From: Nitrospirota bacterium
GTDB lineage: Bacteria; Nitrospirota; Thermodesulfovibrionia; UBA6902; DSMQ01
DNA: 33,046 bases
Assembly: GCA_016212185.1 (NCBI GenBank)
Contig: JACRGX010000009.1
Span: 1-33,046, forward strand
Reading direction: 5' to 3'
The notes beneath the pieces are model-generated. The model saw only the letters and a program-made list of their open reading frames with translations. It ran no database searches and was not told where the DNA came from. Within the stretch, counting starts at the first letter, position 1. Every line of letters begins with the position of its first letter. Of the stretch, positions 18,475 to 32,752 are shown piece by piece. Made by a program: the position numbers and the translations under genes.

Positions 18475-20460
18475 ATGGAAAATCTTATAAGCGCAGGCAT
18501 TTTTTGTTTTCTCTCCGGCACGGCAGTCTCCCTGATGCCTGTCCGGAAAATAAAAACCTATGCCTTCCTGCTCTCATCATTCGGCGCACTGTTTCTCGGC
18601 ATTGCAGGACTATACATGTTACAGGACAGGCAGGCATATTTCCCCTCTTTCCAGATATCGTCATTTTTTGAGTTTGCCTTTCATGCTGATGCGCTTTCAG
18701 GTTTTTTTACTGCGGTTATTTCACTCCTCACGATAGCAGTGTCAATCTATTCCGTCGGTTACGCAAAAGATATTGAGCGTAAAGGACTGATGGGTTTCCT
18801 GTTTAACACCTTTCTTCTGAGCTTGTATGCCGTGGTGCTTTCAGGCAATATCATTACTTTCCTCGTATCATGGGAAACCATGTCTGTTATTTCTTATTTT
18901 CTTGTTACATTTGACAGAACTGAAAAATCGGCAAGGGCAGGACTTATTTATGCCGTAATGACCCACGTCGGGACCGCCTTCATAATTGTACTCTTTCTGA
19001 TTCTTTACAGGTATACGGGAAGCATGAGCTTTTCAGCGATAAAAGAGCATGCCGCACAAATCCCGCAAAATCTGAAACATCTGATATTTATTTTTTCTGT
19101 AATCGGATTCGGCACAAAGGCTGGGATAATCCCCCTTCACACATGGCTTCCGCTGGCGCACCCCGCGGCGCCGTCCAATATCTCGTCCCTGATGTCAGGC
19201 GTGATGATAAAAACAGGCATCTATGGGCTGCTGCGAATAGTCATGGATATAATGGGACCGGGGTATGAATGGTGGGGAATTACAATAATCGTAATCGGCG
19301 CACTCTCCTCTGTACTGGGCGTCCTGTATGCCATGATGGAGCATGATATTAAAAGACTCCTTGCATATCACAGCGTTGAAAATATCGGCATAATCCTGCT
19401 TGGCATAGGCGCTTCAATAATGTTCAAAAGCCATGGTCTTAATAATCTTGCCGCAATAGCTCTTATTGCAGGGCTTTATCATACATTAAACCACGCCTTA
19501 TTCAAGAGCCTGCTCTTCCTTGGCGCCGGCTCTGTCATGCATGCCGCGCATACAAAAAACATGGAAGAAATGGGCGGACTCCTTAAATTAATGCCGTACA
19601 CAGGGTTGTTTTTTCTCATCGGCTCTGTTTCAATATGCGCCCTGCCGCCTTTCAATGGATTTGTAAGCGAATGGCTCACTTACCAGTCGCTGCTCCTCGG
19701 TTTTAAATCCCCGTCTATCACGTCAAAGATTATCTCACCGCTTGGAGGCGCAGCGCTGGCCCTCACGGGCGCGCTTGCCGCCGCCTGTTTTGTAAAGGCC
19801 TTCGGCATATCATTCCTCGGGATGCCGAGGAGTCATCCTGCGGAAAATGCAAGAGAGGTCTCTCCCTCAATGATTGCCGGCATGGCTTTGCTTGCCGCAC
19901 TTTGTCTTTTATCCGGAATATTCCCGGGCTCTGTGATAACGATTGTTTCCAATGCCGTTTATCCGATTGCGGGCTCATCCGGAATGCTGTTGTCAAAAGG
20001 CTTTCTTTATCTGGCTGAAACCTCGTCCTCTCTTTCACCTGCAGTAATTCTAATTACAATGCTCGTCATGTTTGCGGCGGCAGTTATTTTCGTCATAAGT
20101 GCCGGAGGCAGGAAAAAAATCACTTATGCCGGGTCGTGGGACTGCGGCATTCCTTTGCTTACTCCGCGCATGCAATACACCGCAACTGCATTTACAAAAC
20201 CCGTGAAACTGATATTTAAAAGGATATACCTCCCGAGGAGAGAGCTTAAGGTTTCATATATCATTAAACCGTTTTTTGTAAGGTCCATAAGATACAGCGG
20301 GGAAATCACACCTTTTTTTGACAAGTATTTTTATGCCCCTGTTACCGGCTTCATTCACAAGGTTGCGGAAAGGGTCAGATTGCTTCAGTCAGGCAGCCTT
20401 CATCTTTATCTTGGTTATATATTGATAACGCTTATACTGCTTTTGATATTCGGGACCTGA
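18475..20460 (+). CDS. Hydrogenase-4 subunit B-like / NuoL-family proton-channel subunit
   Basis: A 661-residue polytopic membrane protein of the complex I/Mrp antiporter family, closest in type to HyfB/HycC. Conserved features are the Glu in SWETMSVISYF (proton channel), GTKAGIIPLHTWLPLAHPAAPSNIS with its buried Lys and His, a second channel Lys in HDIKRLLAYHSVENIG, and NHALFKSLLFLGAGS. A long C-terminal extension continues past the antiporter core, with DCGIP and RMQYTATAFTKP as in HyfB-type proteins. It is the first gene of a six-gene operon; the next starts 1 bp after its stop codon. It should be an ion-translocating subunit in the cytoplasmic membrane. The ribosome site is weak (AGG about 10 bases before the ATG). 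Confidence 0.92.
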   Translation: MENLISAGIFCFLSGTAVSLMPVRKIKTYAFLLSSFGALFLGIAGLYMLQDRQAYFPSFQISSFFEFAFHADALSGFFTAVISLLTIAVSIYSVGYAKDIERKGLMGFLFNTFLLSLYAVVLSGNIITFLVSWETMSVISYFLVTFDRTEKSARAGLIYAVMTHVGTAFIIVLFLILYRYTGSMSFSAIKEHAAQIPQNLKHLIFIFSVIGFGTKAGIIPLHTWLPLAHPAAPSNISSLMSGVMIKTGIYGLLRIVMDIMGPGYEWWGITIIVIGALSSVLGVLYAMMEHDIKRLLAYHSVENIGIILLGIGASIMFKSHGLNNLAAIALIAGLYHTLNHALFKSLLFLGAGSVMHAAHTKNMEEMGGLLKLMPYTGLFFLIGSVSICALPPFNGFVSEWLTYQSLLLGFKSPSITSKIISPLGGAALALTGALAAACFVKAFGISFLGMPRSHPAENAREVSPSMIAGMALLAALCLLSGIFPGSVITIVSNAVYPIAGSSGMLLSKGFLYLAETSSSLSPAVILITMLVMFAAAVIFVISAGGRKKITYAGSWDCGIPLLTPRMQYTATAFTKPVKLIFKRIYLPRRELKVSYIIKPFFVRSIRYSGEITPFFDKYFYAPVTGFIHKVAERVRLLQSGSLHLYLGYILITLILLLIFGT

Positions 20461-20461
20461 T

Positions 20462-21379
20462 ATGGAACATTTTCAGTTTTTAATAATCATAATTTTTTCT
20501 CCGCTCCTTAACGGGATAATCAAAAAACTTAAGGCGGCTATGCAGGGCAGGACCGGCCCTGGCGTATTCCAGCAGTATTGGGACCTGCTGCGCCTATTTA
20601 AAAAGGACCTGGTTATCTCAAACGCTGCTTCCTGGATATTTAAGGCGGCTCCCTACATAGTATTTACATCCATGATTGCCGCCGCGATGATTGTTCCAGT
20701 TATAACCACAAAAACTTCTTCAGCCGTAATGGGAGACGTCATAGCATTGATTTATATCCTTGCCCTCGGAAGGTTCTTTATGGCGCTGGCAGGGCTTGAC
20801 GCAGGCACAGCCTTTGGCGGAGAAGGAAGCAGCAGGGAAATGACAGTAGCCATTCTTGTGGAACCAATGATGATGCTCAGCATATTCACCGCAGCCATAT
20901 CCGCAGGCACAACAAATATAGCGCTGATTGCCGCAAAGCAGAATGTTTTCTACTCCCCGTCTCACGTCCTGGCCCTGACTGCCTTCCTGGTGGCAATAGT
21001 GGCAGAGACAGGCCGGATACCTGTAGACAATCCTGACACACATCTTGAGCTAACAATGATTCACGAAGGGATGCTGCTTGAATATTCAGGGAAATACCTT
21101 GCCCTTATGGAATGGGCCCATTACATAAAACAGATGCTTTTATTCACCCTTGCGGCTGATATATTTTTTCCGCTGGGCATTTCAAACAATACAGGATTTT
21201 CAGAGCTTGCCGTATCATCCGGAGCTTATTTTTTGAAAATGCTTTTTATGGCATTTCTTATGGCATTGACGGAGTCAACAAGGGCCAAGCTGAGATTTTT
21301 CCAGCTCCCGTCTCTTCTCGGAGGGGCGTTTGTTCTTGCGCTGCTGTCGCTTTTGACTTACATAATGATGGGGAAATAA
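20462..21379 (+). CDS. Hydrogenase-4 subunit C-like / NuoH-family membrane anchor
   Basis: A 305-residue membrane protein of the NuoH/HycD/EchB family, the subunit that couples the soluble iron-sulfur module to the membrane channels. The signature AAMQGRTGPGVFQQYWDLLRLFKKD is near residue 25. Conserved acidic residues occur in AGLDAGTAFGGEGSSREM, in the ETGRIPVDNPDTHLELTMIHEG loop, and at EYSGKYLALMEWA. Eight membrane segments are likely. It lies one base after hyfB-like and one base before hyfE-like, so translation is probably coupled. Unlike the large subunit it keeps the family's conserved charged residues, which argues that ion coupling is retained. Confidence 0.93.
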   Translation: MEHFQFLIIIIFSPLLNGIIKKLKAAMQGRTGPGVFQQYWDLLRLFKKDLVISNAASWIFKAAPYIVFTSMIAAAMIVPVITTKTSSAVMGDVIALIYILALGRFFMALAGLDAGTAFGGEGSSREMTVAILVEPMMMLSIFTAAISAGTTNIALIAAKQNVFYSPSHVLALTAFLVAIVAETGRIPVDNPDTHLELTMIHEGMLLEYSGKYLALMEWAHYIKQMLLFTLAADIFFPLGISNNTGFSELAVSSGAYFLKMLFMAFLMALTESTRAKLRFFQLPSLLGGAFVLALLSLLTYIMMGK

Positions 21380-21380
21380 A

Positions 21381-22040
21381 ATGAGAAACTGGATTCAGAC
21401 AGCTTCGGTAATTGATTTTATATCAGTGTGCATACTCCTCACCGTTATTGCAATGAATGCGCTTAAAAGACTTGAGTCCTGCATCAACGCCTACCGCATT
21501 AATTCATGGCTGCTTTCATTATTAATAGCCATTACGGCATTAATGGTAGGAGAAATACATCTTTATATTGCGTCTGCCGTAACCCTTTTAAGCAAGGGGC
21601 TCCTAATACCCGTGTTCCTCAGAAAAATTGTAAAACAAATGAAGGTCACTCATGACGTAGAGCCGTACATAAGCAATGCCCTGTCGCTAACCATATCGGG
21701 GATTCTCGTTGCTGTCGTTTATGCTTCATTGAGGGAAGGCATCTTTGTCACGGGTTTTTCAAGAAATGTCCTTCAAATCTCAATAGCAGTTATACTTATC
21801 GGGCTTTTTATTATGATTACAAGGAGAAAAGCCGTGATTCAGGTCATCGGACTGTTGTTTATGGAAAACGGGCTTTTTCTTGCGGGCTTTTCCCTGACAT
21901 TCGGGATGCCTACGATTATAGAACTCGGGGTTTTATTTGACATGCTCATGGGCGTGATAATACTTGGAATATTTGCCGTACAGATTAAAAAGGCATTTTC
22001 TTCTTCAGATCTTGATAAGCTTACAGTTTTGAAAGGATAA
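21381..22040 (+). CDS. Hydrogenase-4 subunit E-like membrane protein
   Basis: A 219-residue, very hydrophobic protein of the HyfE type, whose C-terminal part resembles NuoK/MrpC. About six or seven membrane segments are visible. The conserved acidic positions lie in MVGEIHLYIASAVTLLSKG, GLLFMENGLFLAGFSL and IELGVLFDMLMGVIILGIF. HyfE proteins are found in Hyf and related complexes and in some CO-dehydrogenase-linked hydrogenases, where they take the place of NuoK. The gene sits between hyfC-like (1-bp gap) and hyfF-like (5-bp gap). The ATG follows GGGGAAATAAA, a modest ribosome site inside the previous gene's end. Confidence 0.9.
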   Translation: MRNWIQTASVIDFISVCILLTVIAMNALKRLESCINAYRINSWLLSLLIAITALMVGEIHLYIASAVTLLSKGLLIPVFLRKIVKQMKVTHDVEPYISNALSLTISGILVAVVYASLREGIFVTGFSRNVLQISIAVILIGLFIMITRRKAVIQVIGLLFMENGLFLAGFSLTFGMPTIIELGVLFDMLMGVIILGIFAVQIKKAFSSSDLDKLTVLKG

Positions 22041-22045
22041 AATTA

Positions 22046-23521
22046 ATGACCGGAATTCTTCTGATACCGCTCATTACAGCGGTTATCTGCTATATCATTA
22101 GGGGCGTCAGGGCAACAGGTTATGCAAACATGGCAGGCGCCTGTATGCTTGCAGTGTTTTCCGTTCCCGCAATCATTTCATCAGTATCTTCACCTTTGGA
22201 AATGATGAACGGCATGCTTTACATGGACGCCCTCTCCGGCTATATCATGTCGCTGGTAATATTTCTCAGCCTTGCCTCAGCAATTTACTCTGTCGGTTAC
22301 CTTGAACACGAATTAAAGGCCGGACTTATGGACCTCAAAGGGATTAAGAGATATTATACGCTTTTTCATCTGTTTATCTTTACCATGCTTTTGGTGACAA
22401 TGGCTAACAACCTTGCGGTAATGTGGATTGCCATAGAGGCTACAACCATAGTATCCGCCCTGCTTATCGCGCTCGGGTTTTCAAAGAGACCGATGGCAAT
22501 AGAAGCGGCTTGGAAATATATAATCCTCTGCACCGTAGGCATCACATTTGCCCTTCTCGGGATATTCATAACATATTACGCATCCATTTCCGTCACAGGA
22601 GGCGAAGGCATATTGAACTGGACCGCGCTTAAGGGCATTGCCGGAAGGCTTAACCCGTCAACAATGAAACTGGCATTTATATTCATTCTTGTCGGCTACG
22701 GAACAAAGGCCGGGCTTGCGCCTGTGCATAACTGGCTTCCTGATGCCCACAGTGAGGCGCCAAGCCCCATAAGCGCACTGCTCTCGGGAATACTCTTAAA
22801 CACGGCCTTCTATGGGGTCCTGCGTTTCATCTCCATTACAGAGCCGTCAACAGGAGATATTTTTACAGGCAACCTGCTTATTATTTTCGGGCTTGTCTCA
22901 ATCGGCATATCATCCGTCTTCATGCTTGTGCAGGACAATTATAAAAGGCTTCTTGCATACAGCAGCATTGAACACATGGGAATTATCTCGCTCGGAGCCG
23001 GCATTGGAGGCTTGGCAGGTTTTTACGGGGCCTTTCTCCATATATTAAATCATGCGCTGTCAAAACCCTTAATGTTTTTTACATCGGGAAGAATTCAGGC
23101 GCATTACGGCTCTACAAAAATAGAAAATGTCTGCGGGGTATTATCTTCAATGCCCCTGCTTGGGACGCTGACCTTCATCGGAGCGCTCTCGCTTGCAGGA
23201 GCCCCGCCCTTTAATATATTTTTAAGCGAATTTACAATCTTAAAAGCAGGCATAGACAAAGGTCTGTGGACTGCCGTCGGACTGTTTCTGTTTTTTGCCG
23301 TGATTGTCTTTTACGGAGTGCTTTCCGGATTCGGAAAAATACTCCTTGGAAACAAGAAGCCAGAATTCAGAATTCAAAATAACAGCGACAGCCGGGCGGA
23401 TATTTTCTCAAATATGATAATGATTGGAATGGCATCAATGATAATTCTCCTCGGTGTCACCATCCCTGATTTCATAGACAATACAATAATAAAGTGCATT
23501 GGGGCTCTTGGAGTAAAATAA
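22046..23521 (+). CDS. Hydrogenase-4 subunit F-like / NuoM-N family proton-channel subunit
   Basis: A 491-residue antiporter-like membrane protein, the second channel subunit of the complex. Channel residues are present: Glu in MWIAIEATTIVSALL, Lys and His in YGTKAGLAPVHNWLPDAHSE, Lys in NYKRLLAYSSIEHMG, and the NHALSKPLMFFTSG helix. Between the last helices, residues ~439-448 are encoded by a short 7-bp repeat run and look like a hydrophilic insertion. The stop codon overlaps the ATG of the large-subunit gene by one base (TAATG), indicating coupling. It fits the HyfF type, which lacks the long lateral helix of NuoL. Confidence 0.92.
   Translation: MTGILLIPLITAVICYIIRGVRATGYANMAGACMLAVFSVPAIISSVSSPLEMMNGMLYMDALSGYIMSLVIFLSLASAIYSVGYLEHELKAGLMDLKGIKRYYTLFHLFIFTMLLVTMANNLAVMWIAIEATTIVSALLIALGFSKRPMAIEAAWKYIILCTVGITFALLGIFITYYASISVTGGEGILNWTALKGIAGRLNPSTMKLAFIFILVGYGTKAGLAPVHNWLPDAHSEAPSPISALLSGILLNTAFYGVLRFISITEPSTGDIFTGNLLIIFGLVSIGISSVFMLVQDNYKRLLAYSSIEHMGIISLGAGIGGLAGFYGAFLHILNHALSKPLMFFTSGRIQAHYGSTKIENVCGVLSSMPLLGTLTFIGALSLAGAPPFNIFLSEFTILKAGIDKGLWTAVGLFLFFAVIVFYGVLSGFGKILLGNKKPEFRIQNNSDSRADIFSNMIMIGMASMIILLGVTIPDFIDNTIIKCIGALGVK
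23361..23388 (+). repeat. Short heptamer run inside the hyfF-like gene
   Basis: Two identical CAGAATT units are followed by CAAAATA and ACAGCGA in the same 7-bp phase. They encode a polar stretch in a loop near the C terminus. Only four units are present and only two are exact. Confidence 0.5.
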
Positions 23522-25143
23522 TGGAGAAGATTTTAAATAAGGCGCTAAAAACAAGTGAGCGGCTTAATGAATTTTATATTGAAACAAGCAAAATTGACTT
23601 TAAGAACGCCTGTGTTTATCTCGTTGAGAAAAAACAGGCCTTATTAAGGCTCATGTTTGCCGCTGACGAAAGAGAAATAGACAACGTCTTTAGAATATAT
23701 TCGGTATTTTCTGTTCCGGGCATAAATAAGCTTTATATAATTGTCCTGTCCCTGCATGAGGATGACGCTGAATTTCCGTCAATAACTCATCTCATTCCTT
23801 CAGCCCATTGGTACGAACGCGAGATAAATGACATGTTCGGGCTGACGCCGAACGGTCATCCGGACCCGAGGAGGCTCGTATTGCATGACGAATTTCCCGC
23901 CGGGGTCTACCCTCTAAGAAAAGATTACCGTTTTAAAAACGGGGGATGGTTTAAAGGACAGGGTGAAAGAATCAGCAGTCAAGAATCAGCAATGAGTGAT
24001 AAGAAAGAACTTGCTGCTTGCCCCTTGCCCCTTGCCCCTTATAAGTTCATGCAGGTTGAAGGGGAAGGAATTTACGAAATACCGGTGGGACCTGTTCACG
24101 CCGGAATAATTGAACCCGGTCATTTCAGATTCAGCGCTGTCGGAGAAACCATATTTTTCCTTGAGCCAAGATTGTTTTATACACATAAAGGCACGGAAAA
24201 ACACTTTGAGCGCCTCGGTTTTGCAGATGGCGTAAAACTTGCGGAAAGGGTTTCAGGCACTTCGTCGTTTTCCCATTCATCGGCATACTGTATGGCAGTG
24301 GAAAGAATGGCAGGCCTTGAAATTACTGAAAATGCACAGGCAATACGGACGCTCCTGCTTGAGCTTGAAAGACTGTATAACCACATAGGAGATATCGGCA
24401 ACATCTGCGCAGGCACAGGGCTTGCCGTCGGATATGCAAAGGGGGCAGTCATTAAAGAACAGCTCATGCAGCTTAATGAAAGACTTGCCGGGAGCCGGTA
24501 TTTAAGGGGTGTTAACACCATAGGCGGAGTTGCAAAAGACATCTTGCAGCACAGAGACGACATCCTCTCTGCCATTGAAATAATTACAAAAGATTACAAG
24601 AAACTCATGAAGTTATTGCTTGGCGCTATATCCCACGTAGAGAGGCTTGAAAATACAGGCCGGCTGTCAAGAGATATTGCATTAAAGTTAGGCGCAACCG
24701 GCATCACTGCAAGGGCGTCAGGTATTAACGACGACCTCAGAAAGTCGCATCCGCATCTGCTTTATGACAGGCTTGAATTTGAAGTTCATACAATGGCTAA
24801 AGGCGATGTATTCTCAAGAATGATGCTTAGGGCAGAGGAGGCGGAATGTTCAATATCAATGATCAACACACTCCTTGAAACAAGTTATCGGGGAGATTTA
24901 GCCGTGAAAGTCAATAATATACCTGAATGTTCTTCCGCTCTCGGTTATACTGAATCGCCGAGAGGCTCGGTATTTTACTGGGTGATGTCGGATAAAAACG
25001 GTATGCCTCTGAGGGTAAAACTGCGGTCGCCGTCTTTTTGCAACTGGCCTGTCGTGCCTTTTGCAGTGCACGGCAATATAGTGCCTGATTTTCCGTTATG
25101 CAACAAAAGTTTTAATTTATCTTATTCAGGATGTGATATGTAG
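23521..25143 (+). CDS. HyfG/HycE-like large subunit (NuoC-NuoD fusion) lacking NiFe ligands
   Basis: A 540-residue fusion of a NuoC-type domain (~1-145, with HWYEREINDMFGL and PLRKDYRF) and a NuoD/hydrogenase large-subunit domain (~175-540). In group 4 NiFe hydrogenases the first metal motif is RxCGxCxxxH; here it reads RVSGTSSFSH (243-252), with Ser245 and Ser248 in place of both Cys. The C-terminal DPCxxC motif is replaced by NLSYSGC (532-538), with neither Cys in register. The active-site metal therefore cannot be bound in the usual way. This matches the energy-converting-hydrogenase-related (Ehr) class. A 77-bp heptamer array encodes the linker between the two domains. The ATG at 23521 overlaps the hyfF-like stop codon and has GGAG upstream; an upstream in-frame ATG at 23494 is less likely. 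Confidence 0.92.
   Translation: MEKILNKALKTSERLNEFYIETSKIDFKNACVYLVEKKQALLRLMFAADEREIDNVFRIYSVFSVPGINKLYIIVLSLHEDDAEFPSITHLIPSAHWYEREINDMFGLTPNGHPDPRRLVLHDEFPAGVYPLRKDYRFKNGGWFKGQGERISSQESAMSDKKELAACPLPLAPYKFMQVEGEGIYEIPVGPVHAGIIEPGHFRFSAVGETIFFLEPRLFYTHKGTEKHFERLGFADGVKLAERVSGTSSFSHSSAYCMAVERMAGLEITENAQAIRTLLLELERLYNHIGDIGNICAGTGLAVGYAKGAVIKEQLMQLNERLAGSRYLRGVNTIGGVAKDILQHRDDILSAIEIITKDYKKLMKLLLGAISHVERLENTGRLSRDIALKLGATGITARASGINDDLRKSHPHLLYDRLEFEVHTMAKGDVFSRMMLRAEEAECSISMINTLLETSYRGDLAVKVNNIPECSSALGYTESPRGSVFYWVMSDKNGMPLRVKLRSPSFCNWPVVPFAVHGNIVPDFPLCNKSFNLSYSGCDM
23968..24044 (+). repeat. Eleven-unit heptamer array inside the large-subunit gene
   Basis: Eleven consecutive 7-mers run in perfect phase. 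AGAATCA occurs twice, alternating with GCAGTCA and GCAATGA. Later come CTTGCTG, three identical CTTGCCC units and CTTATAA. They encode residues ~150-175 between the NuoC-like and NuoD-like domains with no stop in frame. Confidence 0.82.
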
Positions 25144-25167
25144 AGACAGCAAACAGTGAAATAAAAA

Positions 25168-25692
25168 ATGCTGAAAGAAATATTTAAAAACATACTGTTC
25201 AAAAGAAATACAATCCCGTTTCCTGACGGCATGAAAATTTCTCCTGAAGAGGTGCTGCAGTTTACCGGCCTTCAGAAAAAAATTGACAAAATTTTCAGCC
25301 GTTCATTAAGAATCAGGCAGGTTGATGCCGGCTCCTGCAATGCCTGCGAATGGGAATGCACTGCGCTGACAAATCCCGTTTATGACATCCAGAGATTCGG
25401 GATTGATTTTGTCGCATCGCCGAGGCATGCAGACCTGCTGCTTGTCACAGGTCCCGTCTCAAGGCAAATGGAGTTTGCCCTTAAAAAAACATATCTCGCA
25501 GCCCCGGAACCAAAACTCGTTATTGCATGCGGAGACTGCGCCCTTGACGGAGGCATCTACAAAGGAAGTTATGCCATCACCAACGGTGTTGCAAGTATAG
25601 TTCCGGTAGATGCATATATCCCCGGCTGTCCGCCGGCGCCGGCCCAGATTATCAACGGGTTAATGGAACTGCTTAAAAAAATCTGCGGATAA
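25168..25692 (+). CDS. HyfI/HycG-like small subunit (NuoB family, 4Fe-4S)
   Basis: A 174-residue protein of the NuoB/hydrogenase small-subunit family that carries the cluster next to the large-subunit active site. Cys57 and Cys60 (GSCNACEWE), Cys124 (CGDCALDGG) and Cys154 (IPGCPPAP) match the four ligands of the N2-type 4Fe-4S cluster, so this subunit looks redox-competent even though the large subunit has lost its nickel ligands. It starts 24 bp after the large-subunit gene and is the last gene of the operon. The short gap contains a trace of the heptamer motif (CAAACAGTGAAAT-like). No ferredoxin-like HyfA/HyfH gene follows. Confidence 0.93.
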   Translation: MLKEIFKNILFKRNTIPFPDGMKISPEEVLQFTGLQKKIDKIFSRSLRIRQVDAGSCNACEWECTALTNPVYDIQRFGIDFVASPRHADLLLVTGPVSRQMEFALKKTYLAAPEPKLVIACGDCALDGGIYKGSYAITNGVASIVPVDAYIPGCPPAPAQIINGLMELLKKICG

Positions 25693-25738: not shown

Positions 25739-27289
25739 ATGTCTTTGAAGAAAAAAATAATCCTCGGCTTTCTCACAAGCTCCATTATTATTGTCGTCCT
25801 TATGATCTTTGCCTTTGCCAGCTTCATGGAAATCAGAAAAGAGATACATTACCTTGAACTGTCCGACAACCTCAGAAGCAAATCCTTACAGCTAAGGCGT
25901 CATGAAAAGAACTTTTTCCTTTACATGGACGCCGGCGCGGTTGAAAAAGTTCACGCCAATTTAAAAGAATTGCAGGCGCTTCTTAATCAAGGCCGGCGCA
26001 CTTACAATAATGAGGAACTCCTTACGCTCGGAAAAAAAATAGATGACTACGGTCAGAAATTCAATCACATTGAAACTATTTTTACTGAAATTCAAAAGCA
26101 GTTGACTCATCTTAAGCCCAAAAATTCACAATACAGCGCACTTTCTCAAATCATTGAAACTACATTCTTAGAGCGTCCGCTCGTAAATGCGGAGCTCTTA
26201 AAAAGTCTTTTTTCTCTGCGTGAAGAAAATCCGATTATTAAAAATTTACAGGAGCTGAATACCGAAATGACCGCCATAAGAAAAGACGGTGAGGAGATAT
26301 TGACTATTTCCAATGATATGGATAAGTCGGCAAGGGAAAAAGTTGACAAGGCAATTGCCGTATCGCAGACCACGGCATTAATCCTTTTTCCGATGTTTAT
26401 TTTTGTGGGGCTGTGGGCGTTGTTCGGGATAAGCCAAAGCACTGTGAGACGTTTAAGAATATTGTCCGGAGAGATAGAAAAAACAGGACTGGGAAACTTT
26501 TCCAGTGTTGCTGAACCTACTAAAAACTGGGGAACGGATGAAGTGGGTCTTCTTATTGGGAAATTCAACTATATGGAAGAGCAGCTTGCGCAAAGGGAAA
26601 GAGAACTGCTGCAAAGCAAAAAATTGGCTGCTATCGGTACGCTGGCATCCGGAGTCGCCCATGAACTGAATAATCCGCTTAACAATATATACACAACAGC
26701 ACAGAGGCTGATTAAAAAATCCGGGGAAGAGTGTCCTCCGTTCATCAAAAACGGGCTTGATGACATCTTCGCACAAACTATGAGAGTTAAAAAAATAGTA
26801 AGCGACCTGCTTGAGTTTGCCCGCGGGAAAGAGCCGCAACCCGTGAGAATTGAATTAAATACCCTTATTGCCAATACATACAAATTGCTTCCCAGTTCTT
26901 TAAACACTGCCAATGTCCGCTTTTTGCAGGAAAATGAAATTAGTCAATTATTTATTTCCGCTGACCCCGAGCAGATGGAGCAGGTCTTTATCAATCTCTT
27001 CAGCAATGCAATTGAGGCTATGTCTGGGAAGGGAGACCTGACAGTAAAGACCATTACGAAAAATAACAATATAATAATTAAAATATCCGATGCAGGCAAA
27101 GGCATACCGCAGGAAGCCATTGACAAAATATTTGAACCTTTTTTTACCACCAAGGAAAAAGGGACAGGGCTGGGGCTTGCGATTGTCTTCAATATTATTC
27201 AGAAACATCACGGCGACATTCAGGTTGACAGTCAGGAAGGCAGAGGAACCACCTTTATCATTACCCTGCCTGCCGGGAAGGAGAACTGA
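25739..27289 (+). CDS. Membrane sensor histidine kinase, NtrB-like core
   Basis: A 516-residue kinase. A membrane segment (~8-28) is followed by a ~180-residue, mostly helical extracytoplasmic domain, a second membrane segment (~211-231) and a HAMP-like region to ~290. HisKA has His308 in SGVAHELNNPLNN, and the ATPase has NLFSNAIEAM, ISDAGKGIPQ, FEPFFTTKEKGTGLGLAI and GRGTTF motifs. The HELNNPL box and the FFTTK sequence are typical of kinases that pair with NtrC-family regulators, and one follows after 5 bp. The sensor domain has no Cys or heme motif that I recognise. It begins 46 bp after the hyf-like operon. The promoter seems to be its own, so the functional link to the complex is by position only. 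Confidence 0.93.
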   Translation: MSLKKKIILGFLTSSIIIVVLMIFAFASFMEIRKEIHYLELSDNLRSKSLQLRRHEKNFFLYMDAGAVEKVHANLKELQALLNQGRRTYNNEELLTLGKKIDDYGQKFNHIETIFTEIQKQLTHLKPKNSQYSALSQIIETTFLERPLVNAELLKSLFSLREENPIIKNLQELNTEMTAIRKDGEEILTISNDMDKSAREKVDKAIAVSQTTALILFPMFIFVGLWALFGISQSTVRRLRILSGEIEKTGLGNFSSVAEPTKNWGTDEVGLLIGKFNYMEEQLAQRERELLQSKKLAAIGTLASGVAHELNNPLNNIYTTAQRLIKKSGEECPPFIKNGLDDIFAQTMRVKKIVSDLLEFARGKEPQPVRIELNTLIANTYKLLPSSLNTANVRFLQENEISQLFISADPEQMEQVFINLFSNAIEAMSGKGDLTVKTITKNNNIIIKISDAGKGIPQEAIDKIFEPFFTTKEKGTGLGLAIVFNIIQKHHGDIQVDSQEGRGTTFIITLPAGKEN

Positions 27290-27294
27290 CAATC

Positions 27295-28626
27295 ATGGCA
27301 TTAAAGATACTCGTTGCAGAAGATGAAGAAATAACTCTGAAAAATATCGTTGATACGCTGAATGAAGAAGGATACAGTACGTCCGGAACAAAAGACGGCT
27401 ATGAGGCCCTTCATGCGCTTAAGAAGGAACGCTTTGACCTCCTTATTACAGACATAAAAATGCCGCGGCTGAGCGGTATTGAGCTTCTGGAAAAGGTAAA
27501 AGAGAAATATCCCGAAACAGAAGTAATCATAATCACAGGCTTTGGAAGCATCGGCTCTGCGGTTGAAGCCATGAAAAAGAGCGCTTACGATTATATAACA
27601 AAGCCTTTTGATTTGGACGAGTTGATCATCAGGGTAAAGAAAATTCAAAAGCAGAAAAACCTCAAAAAAGAAAATATTGCGTTAAAGACTTACTTTGACA
27701 TGAACAAAAAGGTCACGATTATTGCAAAGAGCGAAAGCATAAAAAAAATTCTGGATACCATAGACGGGCTGAAGGATTCTGCATGCAGCGTTCTTCTTAC
27801 TGGAGAAAGCGGCACGGGGAAAAATCTCATAGCCAAAATAATACATTCAACAAGCAGGAGACAGGACAGGCCGTTTCTCTCCATCAACTGTGCAACACTT
27901 ACGGAGGACCTCCTTGCCAGCGAGTTGTTCGGACATGAAAAAGGCGCATTTACAGGAGCAATAACACCAAAACAGGGGCTTGTGGAAATAGCTGACACCG
28001 GCACGCTTTTCCTTGATGAAATTGCGGAATTGTCCACGGCCCTCCAGGCAAAGCTTTTGAAGGTTGTTGAAGATGGTGAATTTTACAGGGTTGGGGGGAT
28101 AAAACCCCAAAAAGTTGATGTCAGGTTCATAGCCGCAACAAACCAGAATGTAAAGAATCTGATCTCAGAGGGACGGTTCAGGGAAGACCTCTATTACAGG
28201 CTGAATATTATGGAAATCTTTATCCAGCCTTTAAGAGAACGTCAGGAAGATATAAAGCCCTTAAGCGCATTTTTCCTGCAGAAACATCTTCCTAAATCCA
28301 ATAAGAAAATAACAGGGATTTCAGAAGAGGCGATGGAAATTCTAATGCATTACAGTTTTCCGGGTAATGTAAGGGAACTTGAAAATATCATTGAGCGGGC
28401 AATAATAATTGAGAAGAGCCCTGTAATTACGCCAGAGAGCCTTCCTCACGGCATCAGGGTGCTGCAGATTGAGACCTTAGGCCCTGACCAGATAAAAACC
28501 ATTGATGAGCATATCAAGGAATATGTTGAAAAGGTTGTCAAGGTATTTGGCGGCAACAAAACAAAGGCAGCAGAATCATTAGGCATCTCAAGGACAAGCC
28601 TCTGGAAAATTCTCAAGGAAGATTAA
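27295..28626 (+). CDS. NtrC-family sigma-54-dependent response regulator
   Basis: A 443-residue regulator. The receiver domain has Asp53 in LLITDIKMPRLSG and Lys in TKPFD. The AAA+ domain (~140-380) has Walker A GESGTGKN (170-177), the sigma-54-contacting loop GAFTGA (217-222), Walker B TLFLDEI and arginine-finger region REDLYYRLN. A C-terminal Fis-type helix-turn-helix contains GGNKTKAAESLGISRTSLW. All residues needed for sigma-54 activation are present. The ATG follows GGAGAA by about 9 bases and the gene is co-transcribed with the kinase. Targets are unknown; I find no convincing -24/-12 element in the window. Confidence 0.95.
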   Translation: MALKILVAEDEEITLKNIVDTLNEEGYSTSGTKDGYEALHALKKERFDLLITDIKMPRLSGIELLEKVKEKYPETEVIIITGFGSIGSAVEAMKKSAYDYITKPFDLDELIIRVKKIQKQKNLKKENIALKTYFDMNKKVTIIAKSESIKKILDTIDGLKDSACSVLLTGESGTGKNLIAKIIHSTSRRQDRPFLSINCATLTEDLLASELFGHEKGAFTGAITPKQGLVEIADTGTLFLDEIAELSTALQAKLLKVVEDGEFYRVGGIKPQKVDVRFIAATNQNVKNLISEGRFREDLYYRLNIMEIFIQPLRERQEDIKPLSAFFLQKHLPKSNKKITGISEEAMEILMHYSFPGNVRELENIIERAIIIEKSPVITPESLPHGIRVLQIETLGPDQIKTIDEHIKEYVEKVVKVFGGNKTKAAESLGISRTSLWKILKED

Positions 28627-28748
28627 AAATTGAACTAATCACGAATTGTGTTGACAGTTCATGCCGCGCATAAAAGAGTTGATGAGTCACGGCCTTCCGG
28701 TTAAGATAAGTAGTTGACCAAAAAACTTACTTTACCAAAGAGAGGAAA
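28627..28748. other. Gap between convergent regulator and toxin genes
   Basis: This 122-bp stretch lies between the 3' ends of the NtrC-like gene and the PIN gene. I see no clear terminator hairpin and no open reading frame. A TTGACA hexamer occurs at about 28650 but has no correctly spaced -10. Confidence 0.5.
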
Positions 28749-29138
28749 TTATCCCAGATACTCTTTTAGGGTGATTATTTTTATTCCTTTATACTCCTTC
28801 AAGGCAAGCATTTGTTTGTCTCCGGTTACAATTACATCTGCTTTTCCGCTAACTGCACATTCAAGAATCCTGTTATCAGGAACATCTCTTAAAACCGTAA
28901 TGCTTCTGATTGTATGAACAATTTCACCCAGCCCCGCAAGATAAACGGCAATACGGCTTATGGCTTCTCTATCACGGCTGAATTTATGAGCAAGAACCGA
29001 TAATACCTCATCAATGATTGTCTTGGAAAGTATAAGACTGTCATGGTTGTTAATGATCCTGAAAACAGCTTTTTCAGCCTGGCTGCCGGGAATAACAAAT
29101 GCTGAGATGAAAATATTTGAATCAAAAACAACTCTCAT
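28749..29138 (-). CDS. PIN-domain toxin of a type II toxin-antitoxin pair
   Basis: A 129-residue PIN-domain protein of the kind annotated as the toxin component of PIN-family toxin-antitoxin systems; such proteins are metal-dependent RNases. Acidic catalytic positions are Asp7 in VVFDSNIFISAF, Glu in IIDEVLSVL, Asp in DVPDNRILECA and Asp in ADVIVTGDKQML. Its ATG overlaps the antitoxin stop codon by 4 bp (ATGA), the usual coupling in these operons. It runs opposite to its neighbours. All four acidic positions are present, so the toxin should be active. Confidence 0.92.
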   Translation of the reverse strand: MRVVFDSNIFISAFVIPGSQAEKAVFRIINNHDSLILSKTIIDEVLSVLAHKFSRDREAISRIAVYLAGLGEIVHTIRSITVLRDVPDNRILECAVSGKADVIVTGDKQMLALKEYKGIKIITLKEYLG

Positions 29139-29371
29139 GTCGCGAGGTATCTTTGAAGGTCTTTCTCGGTGAGTATCCCTTTTTCTTTTGCCTTCTTGCT
29201 CCAGCAGCCCTGCAATTCCCTGAATTCCTTCTTAAGTCTTTCCTTCCTCGTTGTCCGCAGAGCATCCTGAATTACCGCGCTCAGGGGCTTCCCTTCATCG
29301 CGGGCAATTTCTTCAGCTTCTTTGGCAAGTTCAGGTGGGAGTGATATTGTTTTCTTCACTGCTATTGTCAT
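29135..29371 (-). CDS. Ribbon-helix-helix antitoxin
   Basis: A 78-residue protein. The N-terminal half has the ribbon-helix-helix pattern: a short strand (AVKKTISLP), helix ELAKEAEEIARDEG, then the turn and helix SAVIQDALRTTRKER. The C-terminal half is charged and should wrap the PIN toxin. GGAGG lies 9 bases before the ATG. It precedes and overlaps the toxin gene. A CATAC/GTATG dyad overlapping the ribosome site is a plausible self-repression operator. Confidence 0.88.
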   Translation of the reverse strand: MTIAVKKTISLPPELAKEAEEIARDEGKPLSAVIQDALRTTRKERLKKEFRELQGCWSKKAKEKGILTEKDLQRYLAT

Positions 29372-29384
29372 ATTAAGTATCCTC

Positions 29385-29396
29385 CATACTGGTATG
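29385..29396. promoter_or_regulatory. Candidate operator of the toxin-antitoxin operon
   Basis: CATACTGGTATG has 5-bp dyad arms and lies directly upstream of, and partly overlapping, the antitoxin ribosome site (29381-29385). Ribbon-helix-helix antitoxins commonly bind short palindromes at this location. Confidence 0.4.
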
Positions 29397-29459
29397 AATA
29401 AATACTACCACAATTTGTCAGAAAAAAACAAGGGAATGCTTATGTTCTTATATTCTTAA

Positions 29460-29480
29460 ACCGTTCATATTTTAAACGCC
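29460..29480. repeat. 21-bp direct repeat, copy 1
   Basis: The sequence beginning ACCGTTCATA and ending TTTTAAACGCC is identical to 29564-29584. It contains a CGTT...AACG dyad over 17 bp, so it may be a protein-binding site. Confidence 0.6.
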
Positions 29481-29563
29481 TCTTTATTCCCCCTGTAATA
29501 TTTTAAAAATACTTCTAAATCAATAAGTTATATCCATACTAATTAAAATAACCCCTCTTTGAT

Positions 29564-29584
29564 ACCGTTCATATTTTAAACGCC
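29564..29584. repeat. 21-bp direct repeat, copy 2
   Basis: An exact copy of 29460-29480, 104 bp downstream (about ten helical turns) and 104 bp before the Usp-like start codon. Confidence 0.6.
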
Positions 29585-29645
29585 CAATAAGTTTCATTTT
29601 TAAATATCCCTTAAAAATCAAGCCATTATAGTAAAGCACCGTTTA

Positions 29646-29654
29646 TGCTATAGA
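29646..29654 (+). promoter_or_regulatory. Candidate extended -10 promoter of the Usp-TauE operon
   Basis: TGCTATAGA resembles TGn plus TATAAT and lies 33 bp before the Usp-like ATG. The hexamer 17 bp upstream (TTATAG) is a poor -35, so an activator bound at the direct repeats could be needed. Confidence 0.3.
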
Positions 29655-29687
29655 TAGGGTAGGAATTAAAACAATCCGGAGGTAAAA

Positions 29688-30164
29688 ATGAAAAAAAATC
29701 TCTTATTTGTAACCTATCAAGACGAAGAATGTGATGAAGGACTTTCATATGTAATTGATCTGGCAAAAATTATGGACAGGGGCATAACTATTTTGCTCGT
29801 ATACAAACAAAAATTAATGGAAAAGTTTGAAAACATAATGACTGCTGTTACATTTGCAGAGGCAGGCGAACATAAGACAGCGCAGGAAATACTCTCAACA
29901 AATGACAAAAAGAATGCCGGGGCCATCAGCCTTCTTCTTGAAAAATGCCGCAAGTCAGGAGTTGATACCAATATCCAGACAACAACAATGGATATAGGTT
30001 TGGCAGTAAAAGATTTCCTCAAACAAAAAAATACCGTAGATATGGTCTTGTTGAGCCCAAGCATAACCAACAACGGAAATATTACATCAAGTGATTTACA
30101 AAAACTCGTTAGAACGGCATCAAGACCTGTTGTAACAATGGCGAGTCAGATTTATGCTTCGTGA
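29688..30164 (+). CDS. Degenerate universal-stress-protein-like domain
   Basis: A 158-residue cytoplasmic protein with the alternating strand-helix pattern of UspA folds (NLLFVTYQDEE start, VDMVLLSPS strand, RPVVTMAS end). The nucleotide motif G-x2-G-x9-G-S/T expected after the fourth strand is absent: the segment reads SPSITNNGNITSSDLQKL. It therefore probably does not bind ATP in the usual way and may act as a partner or regulator. The ATG has a strong CCGGAGGT ribosome site. It is first in an operon of Usp, TauE-like, TIGR02186-like, double Usp and Usp genes. The family call is by overall pattern and context. Confidence 0.65.
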   Translation: MKKNLLFVTYQDEECDEGLSYVIDLAKIMDRGITILLVYKQKLMEKFENIMTAVTFAEAGEHKTAQEILSTNDKKNAGAISLLLEKCRKSGVDTNIQTTTMDIGLAVKDFLKQKNTVDMVLLSPSITNNGNITSSDLQKLVRTASRPVVTMASQIYAS

Positions 30165-30194
30165 ATTTCTTCCAATCAGCAAGGAGACGCATCA

Positions 30195-31121
30195 ATGAAT
30201 TTTATGTATCTTTACTTACCGATAGCCTTAACAAGCATCAACATTATAATTCCGATCGGGCTGGGGCTTGCAGTAGGCTTGCTGTCCGGTCTTTTCGGCG
30301 TCGGCGGGGGGTTTTTGATGACCCCACTTCTAATAATGTTCGGTATTCCCTCAACTGTTGCAGCTGCAACGGATTCAAATCAGATAGTTGCCGCATCAAC
30401 CTCCGGGACATATGCGCACTGGAAGGTCGGCAATGTGGATTTCAAGATGGGATTATATCTCCTTATCGGCGGGTTTATCGGAGGACTTTTGGGCGTACAG
30501 GCCATAAGAGTTCTCAATGCAACGGGCAATGCAGACTTCGTCATAAAAATGACTTATGTCCTGATGCTTGGGATAGTCGGAACATATATGCTCATTGAAA
30601 GTTTAAACAGTATGAAGAAAAAAAAGACGGAGGCGGTCAAAACTGAAAAAGAATCAGGACTGACAAAATTCCTCAAGTCACTCCCATTTCAAACGCACTT
30701 TGAAAAATCAGGGGTAACACATTCCACGCTTGTTCCGATTTTATTCGGAGGTTTTGTCGGCATACTCGCTGCAATCATGGGAGTCGGCGGCGGTTTCCTA
30801 ATGGTTCCTGTCATGGTCTACGTTTTAAAAATGCCAATGCATGTCGTTGTAGGCACAAGCCTCTTTCAGATATTGTTTAACTGCATAGAAGTTACTTTTC
30901 TTCAGGCTTATACCAATCACAACGTGGATTTTATCCTTGCAGTGCTTTTGCTGTTAGGCTCCACTGTCGGGGCACAGGCAGGAGCGGTATTCGGCAGGAA
31001 AATGAAAGGGGAACAGCTAAAGATAATACTCGCAGTGATAGTTCTCATAGTGACAGTAAAAATAATCTTTGAACTTACATTAACGCCGTCATTGCTTCTA
31101 TCACAGGTTGGAAAACACTGA
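30195..31121 (+). CDS. TauE/SafE-family membrane permease
   Basis: A 308-residue membrane protein of the sulfite exporter TauE/SafE family, whose members move sulfite, sulfoacetate and other small organic or sulfur anions. The family's internal duplication is clear: LSGLFGVGGGFLMTPLLIMF (~residues 30-50) and LAAIMGVGGGFLMVPVMVYV (~195-215). About eight membrane segments are split by a charged ~40-residue loop (~137-178) that would lie on one side of the membrane. GGAG precedes the ATG. The stop codon overlaps the next start (TGATG). The substrate cannot be read from the sequence; sulfite is a guess from the family name. Confidence 0.9.
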   Translation: MNFMYLYLPIALTSINIIIPIGLGLAVGLLSGLFGVGGGFLMTPLLIMFGIPSTVAAATDSNQIVAASTSGTYAHWKVGNVDFKMGLYLLIGGFIGGLLGVQAIRVLNATGNADFVIKMTYVLMLGIVGTYMLIESLNSMKKKKTEAVKTEKESGLTKFLKSLPFQTHFEKSGVTHSTLVPILFGGFVGILAAIMGVGGGFLMVPVMVYVLKMPMHVVVGTSLFQILFNCIEVTFLQAYTNHNVDFILAVLLLLGSTVGAQAGAVFGRKMKGEQLKIILAVIVLIVTVKIIFELTLTPSLLLSQVGKH

Positions 31122-31891
31122 TGAAAAATTTTAAATTTTTAATATTTTTATTGCCATGCATATTCATATTCACAGGGGAATCATCTGCTGAACTTACAAT
31201 AAAGGCAAACCACAACCATATTAAGATAGATTTCTTTTATCATGGCAGTATTGTAAGCGTTGCCGGAAATGCCGATTCCGGCACTGACCTGATTATTAAA
31301 ATAGCTTCTCCCAACGGACATGATGTTCTGAAACAGAGAGGAAAGACAGCAGGATTTTTGTGGATGAACAAAGGGACAGTAAATTTTAAGAATACACCAA
31401 ATCTCTATTCCATTTACAGTACAAAAAAAATTGAGGATCTCCTGAGCAAAGAGGAAACGGATAAGTATGTTCTCGGCTATCCGGCTTTAAGCAGACAGAT
31501 AAAAATGACACCTGTTTCAAATGAGGATGAAAAATCAAAATGGTTCAATGAATTCGTAAAATATAAGGAATCCTCAAATCTTTACACAATATCTTCGAGT
31601 AAAATAATAACCACGGCAAAAGACGGCAGGCAGGCTTATTATATTCTGACAAGCTGGCCTTATCAGGCGCCTCCGGGGAATTATCTCGTTACCGTATATG
31701 CGGTAAGGGATAAAAAGGTCCTTGAGAAAGCAGAGGCAAAGGTATCGGTTGAACAGGTTGGTATCGTAAAGATACTTGCCGGCATGGCAAAGAATAAAGC
31801 CGCTTTATACGGGATTATATCCGTAATGGCGGCGCTGGCTGCCGGTTTTGGAGTCGGACTCATATTCAGAAAGGGCGGAGGGGCTCATTAA
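31121..31891 (+). CDS. TIGR02186-type membrane-anchored extracytoplasmic protein
   Basis: A 256-residue protein with an N-terminal signal peptide (KFLIFLLPCIFIFTGESSAE), a ~200-residue extracytoplasmic domain and a C-terminal membrane helix (~226-246, ALYGIISVMAALAAGFGVGL) ending in a short basic tail. It resembles the TIGR02186 / Alph_Pro_TM family, of unknown function: KIDFFYHGSIVSVAGNAD, LIIKIASP, KTAGFLWMNKGTVNF and PNLYSIYSTKKIEDLL match its usual layout. In other bacteria these proteins are often encoded next to TauE/SafE permeases, as here (1-bp overlap), so it is probably an accessory of the transporter. Confidence 0.8.
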   Translation: MKNFKFLIFLLPCIFIFTGESSAELTIKANHNHIKIDFFYHGSIVSVAGNADSGTDLIIKIASPNGHDVLKQRGKTAGFLWMNKGTVNFKNTPNLYSIYSTKKIEDLLSKEETDKYVLGYPALSRQIKMTPVSNEDEKSKWFNEFVKYKESSNLYTISSSKIITTAKDGRQAYYILTSWPYQAPPGNYLVTVYAVRDKKVLEKAEAKVSVEQVGIVKILAGMAKNKAALYGIISVMAALAAGFGVGLIFRKGGGAH

Positions 31892-31894
31892 GCT

Positions 31895-32752
31895 ATGTAC
31901 GAAAAAATTTTAGTGGGATTTGATGACTCTCAGCACAGCAAAGCGGCGTTGATTGAGGCGGCAAACTGGATCAAAAAACACGGCAGTAAACTTATTTTAG
32001 TGCATGCCGTGTTTTTTGATTCCGAGGAATTCGGAATTGCGCCGGAGCAATTGGAAAAACGCATGAAGGCAGGCGAAAAAGTGTGTGTTCAAACAAAAGC
32101 AATGTTAACTTCTGAATTTGGAATAGAAGTACAATCCCTGCTTCGTGAGGGGGAGCCTCCTGCAGTCATAGTTGACATTGCAAAGGAAGAGAAGGCGGAT
32201 TTAATAATGCTGGGCACATACGGCAGAAAAGGGCTGAAAAGACTGCTTATGGGGAGCGTGACCTCACAGGTCATTGTAAATTCTTCAATTGATGTGCTGG
32301 TAGTGAAAAAACCGTGTACAGAATGCACCGGAGAATATAAATCTATCCTGGTTCCTTTTGACGGTTCGGCATCCAGTCAAAAGGCATTAAACCTCGCCTG
32401 CCGTTTGTCAAAAACAGATAATGCAGAATTGCAAATCCTGTATGTTATTCCGCGCTATGAAGAAATGGTGGAATTTTTTAAAAGCAGCTCAATTAAGAAA
32501 AGTCTTCTTCTTGAAGCGCAGAAAATTATTAGTACGGCAAAGGGAATTGCCTCAGAGCTTGGGGTATCCGTCAAAGATGAAATACAAGAAGGGAATGCGG
32601 CTGAGAAAATCGTTGAAACCTCAAATAAACTGAATACCGACTTGATAGTGATGGGGAGTTACGGGTACAGCGGTGTCAACAAGGCGATCATAGGAAGCAC
32701 AGCAGAAAGAGTAATCACCAATGCATCCTGTCCCATTCTGGTCGTGAGGTAA
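31895..32752 (+). CDS. Tandem universal stress protein (two UspA domains)
   Basis: A 285-residue protein with two complete UspA domains. Domain 1 (~1-143) starts YEKILVGFDDSQHSKAA and has the nucleotide motif GTYGRKGLKRLLMGS. Domain 2 (~148-285) starts YKSILVPFDGSASSQKA and has GSYGYSGVNKAIIGS. Both fit G-x2-G-x9-G-S exactly, so both should bind ATP. The two domains probably dimerise within the chain. A CTEC motif lies at the domain junction. The start is 3 bp after the TIGR02186-like stop codon. Regulation of, or response to, the adjacent permease is a reasonable guess. Confidence 0.93.
   Translation: MYEKILVGFDDSQHSKAALIEAANWIKKHGSKLILVHAVFFDSEEFGIAPEQLEKRMKAGEKVCVQTKAMLTSEFGIEVQSLLREGEPPAVIVDIAKEEKADLIMLGTYGRKGLKRLLMGSVTSQVIVNSSIDVLVVKKPCTECTGEYKSILVPFDGSASSQKALNLACRLSKTDNAELQILYVIPRYEEMVEFFKSSSIKKSLLLEAQKIISTAKGIASELGVSVKDEIQEGNAAEKIVETSNKLNTDLIVMGSYGYSGVNKAIIGSTAERVITNASCPILVVR

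Follow-up and report, generated by a model that had tools for sequence, protein, structure and literature searches.

An intact six-gene operon from a Nitrospirota bacterium almost certainly encodes an energy-converting-hydrogenase-related (Ehr) complex that is not a hydrogenase. Its large subunit has lost all four nickel-ligand cysteines, and its small subunit retains the four cysteines of the proximal [4Fe-4S] cluster. The operon, hereafter the query, occupies positions 18475 to 25692 of the window (the whole 33,046-nucleotide stretch of DNA that was analyzed) in the order B-C-E-F-Large-Small. It adds a member to a known class, and the informative additions are a single-cluster form with two extra cysteines, relatives that carry the nickel cysteines in the same operon, and a cofactor-less branch. 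The features are as follows.

18475 to 20460, plus strand: HyfB/NuoL-like antiporter subunit, 661 amino acids (NCBIfam hydrogenase 4 subunit B, 698.5 bits against a cut-off of 667)
20462 to 21379, plus strand: HyfC/NuoH-like membrane anchor, 305 amino acids (Pfam NADHdh, 1.2e-49; acidic loop aligned with HyfC, HycD and NuoH)
21381 to 22040, plus strand: HyfE-like membrane subunit, 219 amino acids (NCBIfam hydrogenase 4 membrane subunit, 1.6e-26, under the cut-off)
22046 to 23521, plus strand: HyfF-like antiporter subunit, 491 amino acids (NCBIfam hydrogenase 4 subunit F, 4.2e-130, under the cut-off)
23521 to 25143, plus strand: large subunit, a HycE-like NuoC/D fusion without nickel ligands, 540 amino acids (S245, S248, S534, G537)
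24247 to 24276, plus strand: L1 motif RVSGTSSFSH of the large subunit, residues 243 to 252, formerly RxCGxCxxxH (translation and alignment)
25108 to 25140, plus strand: C-terminal motif SFNLSYSGCDM of the large subunit, residues 530 to 540, formerly DPCxxC, with N532 in place of the canopy Asp
25168 to 25692, plus strand: NuoB/HycG-like small subunit, 174 amino acids (C57, C60, C124 and C154 kept; extra C64 and C121; no ferredoxin domain)

The earlier note on this DNA had proposed that the large subunit lacks every nickel-ligand cysteine and keeps His252, and both points are confirmed by the translation and by alignment with E. coli HycE and HyfG. When a hydrogenase of probable Thermodesulfovibrio-like type (L048) is included, the four cysteine columns fall on S245, S248, S534 and G537, encoded by TCA, TCG, TCT and GGA. 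The E. coli motifs RVCGICGFAH and SLDPCYSCTDR face a first motif that retains H252 and a C-terminus that reads DFPLCNKSFNLSYSGCDM (translation of 23521-25143); the RxCGxCxxxH and DPCxxC cysteines that mark group 4 [NiFe] hydrogenases are absent. The large subunit matches Pfam Complex1_30kDa and Complex1_49kDa, with a weak match to NiFeSe_Hases. Its start at 23521 has GGAG a short way 5' and overlaps the stop of the HyfF-like gene in TAATG, while the mechanically called reading frame opens at an in-frame GTG at 23494.

Sequencing error or chance is ruled out as the source of these replacements because more than 15 Nitrospirota loci at 56-77% identity show the same nickel-less state, as do 101 rows of the alignment overall, a few of which are a single locus entered through two collections. 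Of the 101 nickel-less rows, 89 have Ser and 10 have Ala at position 245; position 248 holds Ser, Thr, Glu or Asn, and positions 534 and 537 are Ser and Gly, respectively, in 97 rows each. A further 43 rows have Cys in every ligand column for which sequence is available. EIPVGPVH and [FG]Y[TV]HKG[TI]E served as peptide patterns in steering the collection of relatives, which biases the frequency of V192. Two homologs, from Omnitrophota and Elusimicrobia (L113 and L122), have Cys at the first ligand position alone (RVCGDAAFSH and NICGDSAFSY).

Two cysteines near the C-terminal motif, Cys538 and Cys527, could in principle make the protein a true hydrogenase with displaced ligands. Cys538 does lie one position beyond the last ligand column, as the earlier note observed, and its suggestion that this residue is a remnant or a new ligand fails on comparison. 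The column is Cys in 21 of the 43 ligand-bearing relatives. Nickel-less ones have Asn, Thr, His or Cys there, and a few members of the query clade itself have Ser, Thr or Ala. Desulfosporosinus-type relatives read CYSCCDR, with a Cys in this column beside all four ligands, so Cys538 is neither a displaced nor a residual ligand. Cys527 is confined to nickel-less members (51/101) and is Ile in Cys-bearing relatives. The L1 motif contains no Cys, and the genome yields no HypD, leaving this explanation very improbable.

The genome as a whole points the same way. HypD was not found in the 97.6%-complete assembly, in a search that was positive in E. coli and three other control genomes, so the known route to the [NiFe] cofactor is closed unless the gene sits in the few percent of the genome that is missing. 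A true [NiFe] large subunit is likewise absent genome-wide; the only NiFeSe_Hases-like matches are the query protein and an ordinary NuoD, encoded separately on contig 23. Because both HypD and a true [NiFe] large subunit are missing, we predict that the large subunit does not act as a hydrogenase in its Nitrospirota host. Absence of HypD is not a precondition of nickel loss, since some relatives with a nickel-less complex have HypD.

Nor does the locus look like a decaying, functionless pseudo-hydrogenase, a reading that could appeal to the loss of both the nickel ligands and the ferredoxin wire and that we consider just as improbable as displaced ligands. All six reading frames are intact in many genomes, and the B-C-E-F-L-S order, with S sometimes first, is shared by about 80 loci spread over many phyla. 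In all six genes dN/dS is 0.04-0.12 relative to a same-family relative (L034), at a dS near saturation. With so widespread an operon and with near-fixation of S, S/T, S and G at the former ligand positions, we regard the loss of nickel ligands as a settled state rather than decay. The membrane arm is also preserved: the channel residues that had been reported as retained in the membrane subunits were recovered by residue alignment in B (E134, K215, K246, H340 and E399) and in F (E131, K221, N252, H336 and E395), and Asn252 is shared with E. coli HyfF.

Assignment to Ehr, a named class of unknown function (PMC7894505, PMC13194489, PMC6688271, PMC4378227, PMC6349859, PMC10284858, PMC10432482, PMC7304191), was made in the earlier note and is well supported. 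The operon combines NuoL-, NuoH- and HyfE-like membrane subunits with a small subunit and a group 4-homologous large subunit without Ni-Fe cysteines, the genome lacks HypD, and the closest structural match is HycE. HydDB leaves Ehr out as a homolog that does not metabolize H2 (PMC5037454), and published work bears out the statement that its electron donor and acceptor are unresolved (PMC6349859, PMC10284858, PMC4378227). Ehr complexes are found in Geobacter (GSU0739-0745), Methylacidiphilum (ehrABCDLS), Sulfobacillus, comammox Nitrospira, ammonia-oxidizing archaea and CPR bacteria, and share group-4-type membrane, large and small subunits and a large subunit without the RxCGxC and DPCxxC motifs. 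The Geobacter cluster, compared by description only, has seven genes, and papers name both ehrA-1 and ehrA-2; relative to it, the small subunit of the query clade is short, with no ferredoxin domain and two extra cysteines. E. coli formate hydrogenlyase and hydrogenase-4 (HycE and HyfG) share the fold and have homologous membrane, large and small subunits. They differ in having nickel ligands, HyfA, HyfD, HyfH, maturation genes and a link to formate dehydrogenase (FDH), and none of HyfA, HyfD, HyfH or the maturation genes is present in the query operon, which sets it apart from hydrogenase-4 (Hyf). An annotation of "hydrogenase 4" on this operon should not be taken as a sign of hydrogen metabolism.

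The same BCEFLS operon also occurs with all four nickel cysteines, in Brocadia-type Planctomycetota and Desulfitobacteriia (L067:9917-11509, L071:9917-11509, L104:9926-11524 and L179-L183). Their large subunits are 42-49% identical to the query and share the signature DFPLINKSF; there is no separate HyfH gene, and in most of them a ferredoxin domain is fused to the small subunit. These Cys-bearing relatives probably correspond to HydDB group 4f, which has been reported as close to Ehr (PMC10284858). Three Brocadia-type metagenome-assembled genomes with intact cysteines gave no HypD match, possibly through incompleteness, and HypD is accordingly an imperfect marker of Cys-bearing members.

In trees built without the ligand columns, the query groups with Nitrospirota in a clade of good support, and the deeper branches of the Ehr-like family have poor resolution. 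The earlier note would have given up its assignment for a tree placing the query among active group 4 hydrogenases. No such placement was seen in a simple form: the E. coli and Thermodesulfovibrio-like hydrogenases fall outside the Ehr-like family, but in free trees it includes the Cys-bearing Brocadia and Desulfitobacteriia sequences, nested among nickel-less ones. Such nesting in quick trees would suggest several independent losses of the nickel ligands, a scenario we do not adopt, as a single nickel-less clade is not rejected (p-AU 0.143 against the better free tree and 0.79 against an under-searched one). For this reason we make no claim on the number of losses or on regain.

The vacated site was mapped by alignment to HycE and Nqo4 together with structural papers (PMC9474812, PMC7684303). 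The canopy Arg (HycE R478) is retained as the nearly invariant R481, and the Glu of the beta1-beta2 loop (HycE E193) as E198. The canopy Asp (HycE D529), described as strictly conserved in hydrogenase and complex I alike (PMC9474812), is N532 in the query; this column is Asn in 82 of the 101 nickel-less rows and Glu in Cys-bearing relatives. At the quinone headgroup residues of complex I, Nqo4 H38 and Y87, the query has I197 and G246. With N532 and these two replacements, the cavity is unlike the corresponding site of hydrogenases and of complex I. An AlphaFold2 model of the large subunit (pLDDT 88, pTM 0.90; loop 192-199 below pLDDT 50) has as its best PDB match 7z0s_E, the HycE large subunit of formate hydrogenlyase (TM 0.90), followed by E. 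coli NuoCD.

In the small subunit, the proximal-cluster cysteines C57, C60, C124 and C154 are conserved in 18/18 members of the query clade. The extra C121 and C64, present in 18/18 and 17/18 members, respectively, and nearly absent elsewhere, adjoin cluster ligands in the sequence and may take part in electron transfer. The CxxC spacing is hydrogenase-like, aligning without gaps to HycG and MbhJ, rather than the shortened loop of the MBS type, and the C57-x2-C60 arrangement is not the tandem cysteine pair of NuoB (N2). An N-terminal 2[4Fe-4S] ferredoxin domain is found on the small subunit of Brocadia-type members, several Desulfitobacteriia and some nickel-less members (Peptococcaceae), and Methanoperedens has a separate ferredoxin-like gene between the large and small subunits. 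Neither arrangement occurs in the query clade.

We favor, tentatively and at somewhat less than even odds, a reading in which redox chemistry at the single proximal cluster drives ion translocation. The membrane arm of B, C, E and F, of the ion-translocating group-4-hydrogenase/complex-I type, would bear the peripheral large/small dimer, and the former NiFe cavity would hold a substrate next to the proximal cluster. As in complex I and MBS, electrons would move between cluster and substrate, and ion movement through B and F would follow from this transfer by way of the three-loop/E-channel machinery. As the clade has no ferredoxin domain, a docking partner encoded outside the operon, or the substrate itself, would supply or accept the electrons. 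The precedent is the MBS sulfane sulfur reductase of Pyrococcus, which also has a proximal [4Fe-4S] cluster above an emptied cavity and reduces its substrate via that cluster without a NiFe site (PMC7684303). MBS keeps two of the four NiFe cysteines, has a shortened CxxC loop and carries an Mrp module (PMC7684303); the query keeps no NiFe cysteine and has hydrogenase-like spacing, and so is not of the MBS type. Further points in favor are the ligand loss with conserved replacements, the lack of HypD and of a true large subunit, purifying selection, recurrence in about 80 BCEFLS loci, the conserved four-cysteine cluster motif with C121 and C64, the HycE-like fold, and the retained E198 and R481. 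Against it stand the missing H38/Y87 equivalents, the change of the canopy Asp to N532, the unshortened CxxC loop, and an operon with varying neighbors and no linked substrate or partner gene.

Redox chemistry may be dispensable altogether, since related complexes without any Fe-S ligands persist. In a Patescibacteria/Dadabacteria branch (Levybacteria L082, Dadabacteria L086, Daviesbacteria L091, and L088, L116 and L129), the cluster motifs read STNACEQE, GDDA and PGDPP, with Thr, Asp, Glu and Gly for ligands; three of the four ligands are gone, and in some members the fourth as well. Further Patescibacteria (L213-L220) have the proximal [4Fe-4S] ligands likewise replaced, and the variant STNAEE / GDGA / PGDPP is also found. 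The six complexes of the branch have nickel-less large subunits too and, judged by their motifs, would contain no recognizable cofactor site. CPR large subunits without nickel cysteines were already known (PMC7304191), and in the parts of the literature consulted we found no report of cluster-ligand loss in a CPR small subunit.

The existence of this cofactor-less branch is the main ground for doubting the cluster-driven reading and makes redox-independent transport a serious rival, the foremost one. The large/small head would then cap the complex in a structural or regulatory role, and the membrane arm would move Na+/H+ or protons without electron transfer, for example in pH homeostasis. We judge it possible but distinctly less likely than cluster-driven translocation. 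It accords with the intact B and F channel residues of L082, with the absence of a ferredoxin domain in the query, and with a pH role suggested for ehr (PMC6688271), whereas the invariant proximal-cluster cysteines of the query clade and the two added there are not easily accounted for unless redox chemistry or a cluster is involved. A broader proposal, to which we give rather less credence, is that the Ehr family spans full hydrogenases to metal-free complexes, with the query as a one-cluster intermediate, and that the complex-I-type membrane arm can be worked or regulated without redox. If so, it would provide a naturally uncoupled system in which to dissect complex I. Ehr is found in many bacterial and archaeal phyla, its role unsolved, and one conserved six-gene complex displays a natural series of losses: the nickel site, the ferredoxin wire and then the proximal cluster. 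This series makes the need for redox in driving a complex-I-type arm directly testable.

A quinone reductase driven by ferredoxin or formate, as a primitive complex I of the kind proposed in an FDH-Ehr respiratory chain, seems unlikely, if less so than decay or displaced ligands. Homology to the complex I core (NuoB/C/D/H) supports it. An FDH-Ehr link has been proposed in Margulisbacteria/Saganbacteria (PMC6349859), the ferredoxin domain is kept in some Ehr relatives, and the genome has several molybdopterin oxidoreductases. The best of these (G000:C2:57629-58984, L196) contains one in-frame TGA, as in FdhA, and is probably a selenocysteine formate dehydrogenase. N287 is an Asn, matching the complex I canopy residue. 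Unlike complex I, however, the query has I197 and G246 for H38 and Y87, Asn for the canopy Asp, no tandem cysteines and no NADH module in the operon; the operon also contains neither a ferredoxin subunit nor an FDH gene, and the molybdopterin genes all lie on other contigs.

Gene neighborhood revealed no electron partner common to the query clade. A phosphate-binding-like protein and a HAMP-PAS protein are encoded upstream of the operon, and a histidine kinase and a sigma-54 response regulator downstream; across loci, the recurrent neighbors are a tRNA synthetase, a mechanosensitive channel, a helicase and regulators. Because the flanking genes vary, we take the six genes as the unit. A sigma-54 promoter ahead of the operon was considered and rejected: no consensus match occurs there, and matches in the window are fewer than expected by chance. 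A TauE-type exporter, universal stress proteins and the kinase/sigma-54 regulator pair (window 25739-32752) recur near the Ehr operon in the related genomes L035, L037, L055 and L063. Between the regulator and stress-protein genes lies a PIN-domain reading frame (28749-29138, minus strand) with no relative in the loci compared. One genome of the Planctomycetota set (L190:1-19900) carries two tandem BCEFLS operons, the best-matching of which groups with the query clade.
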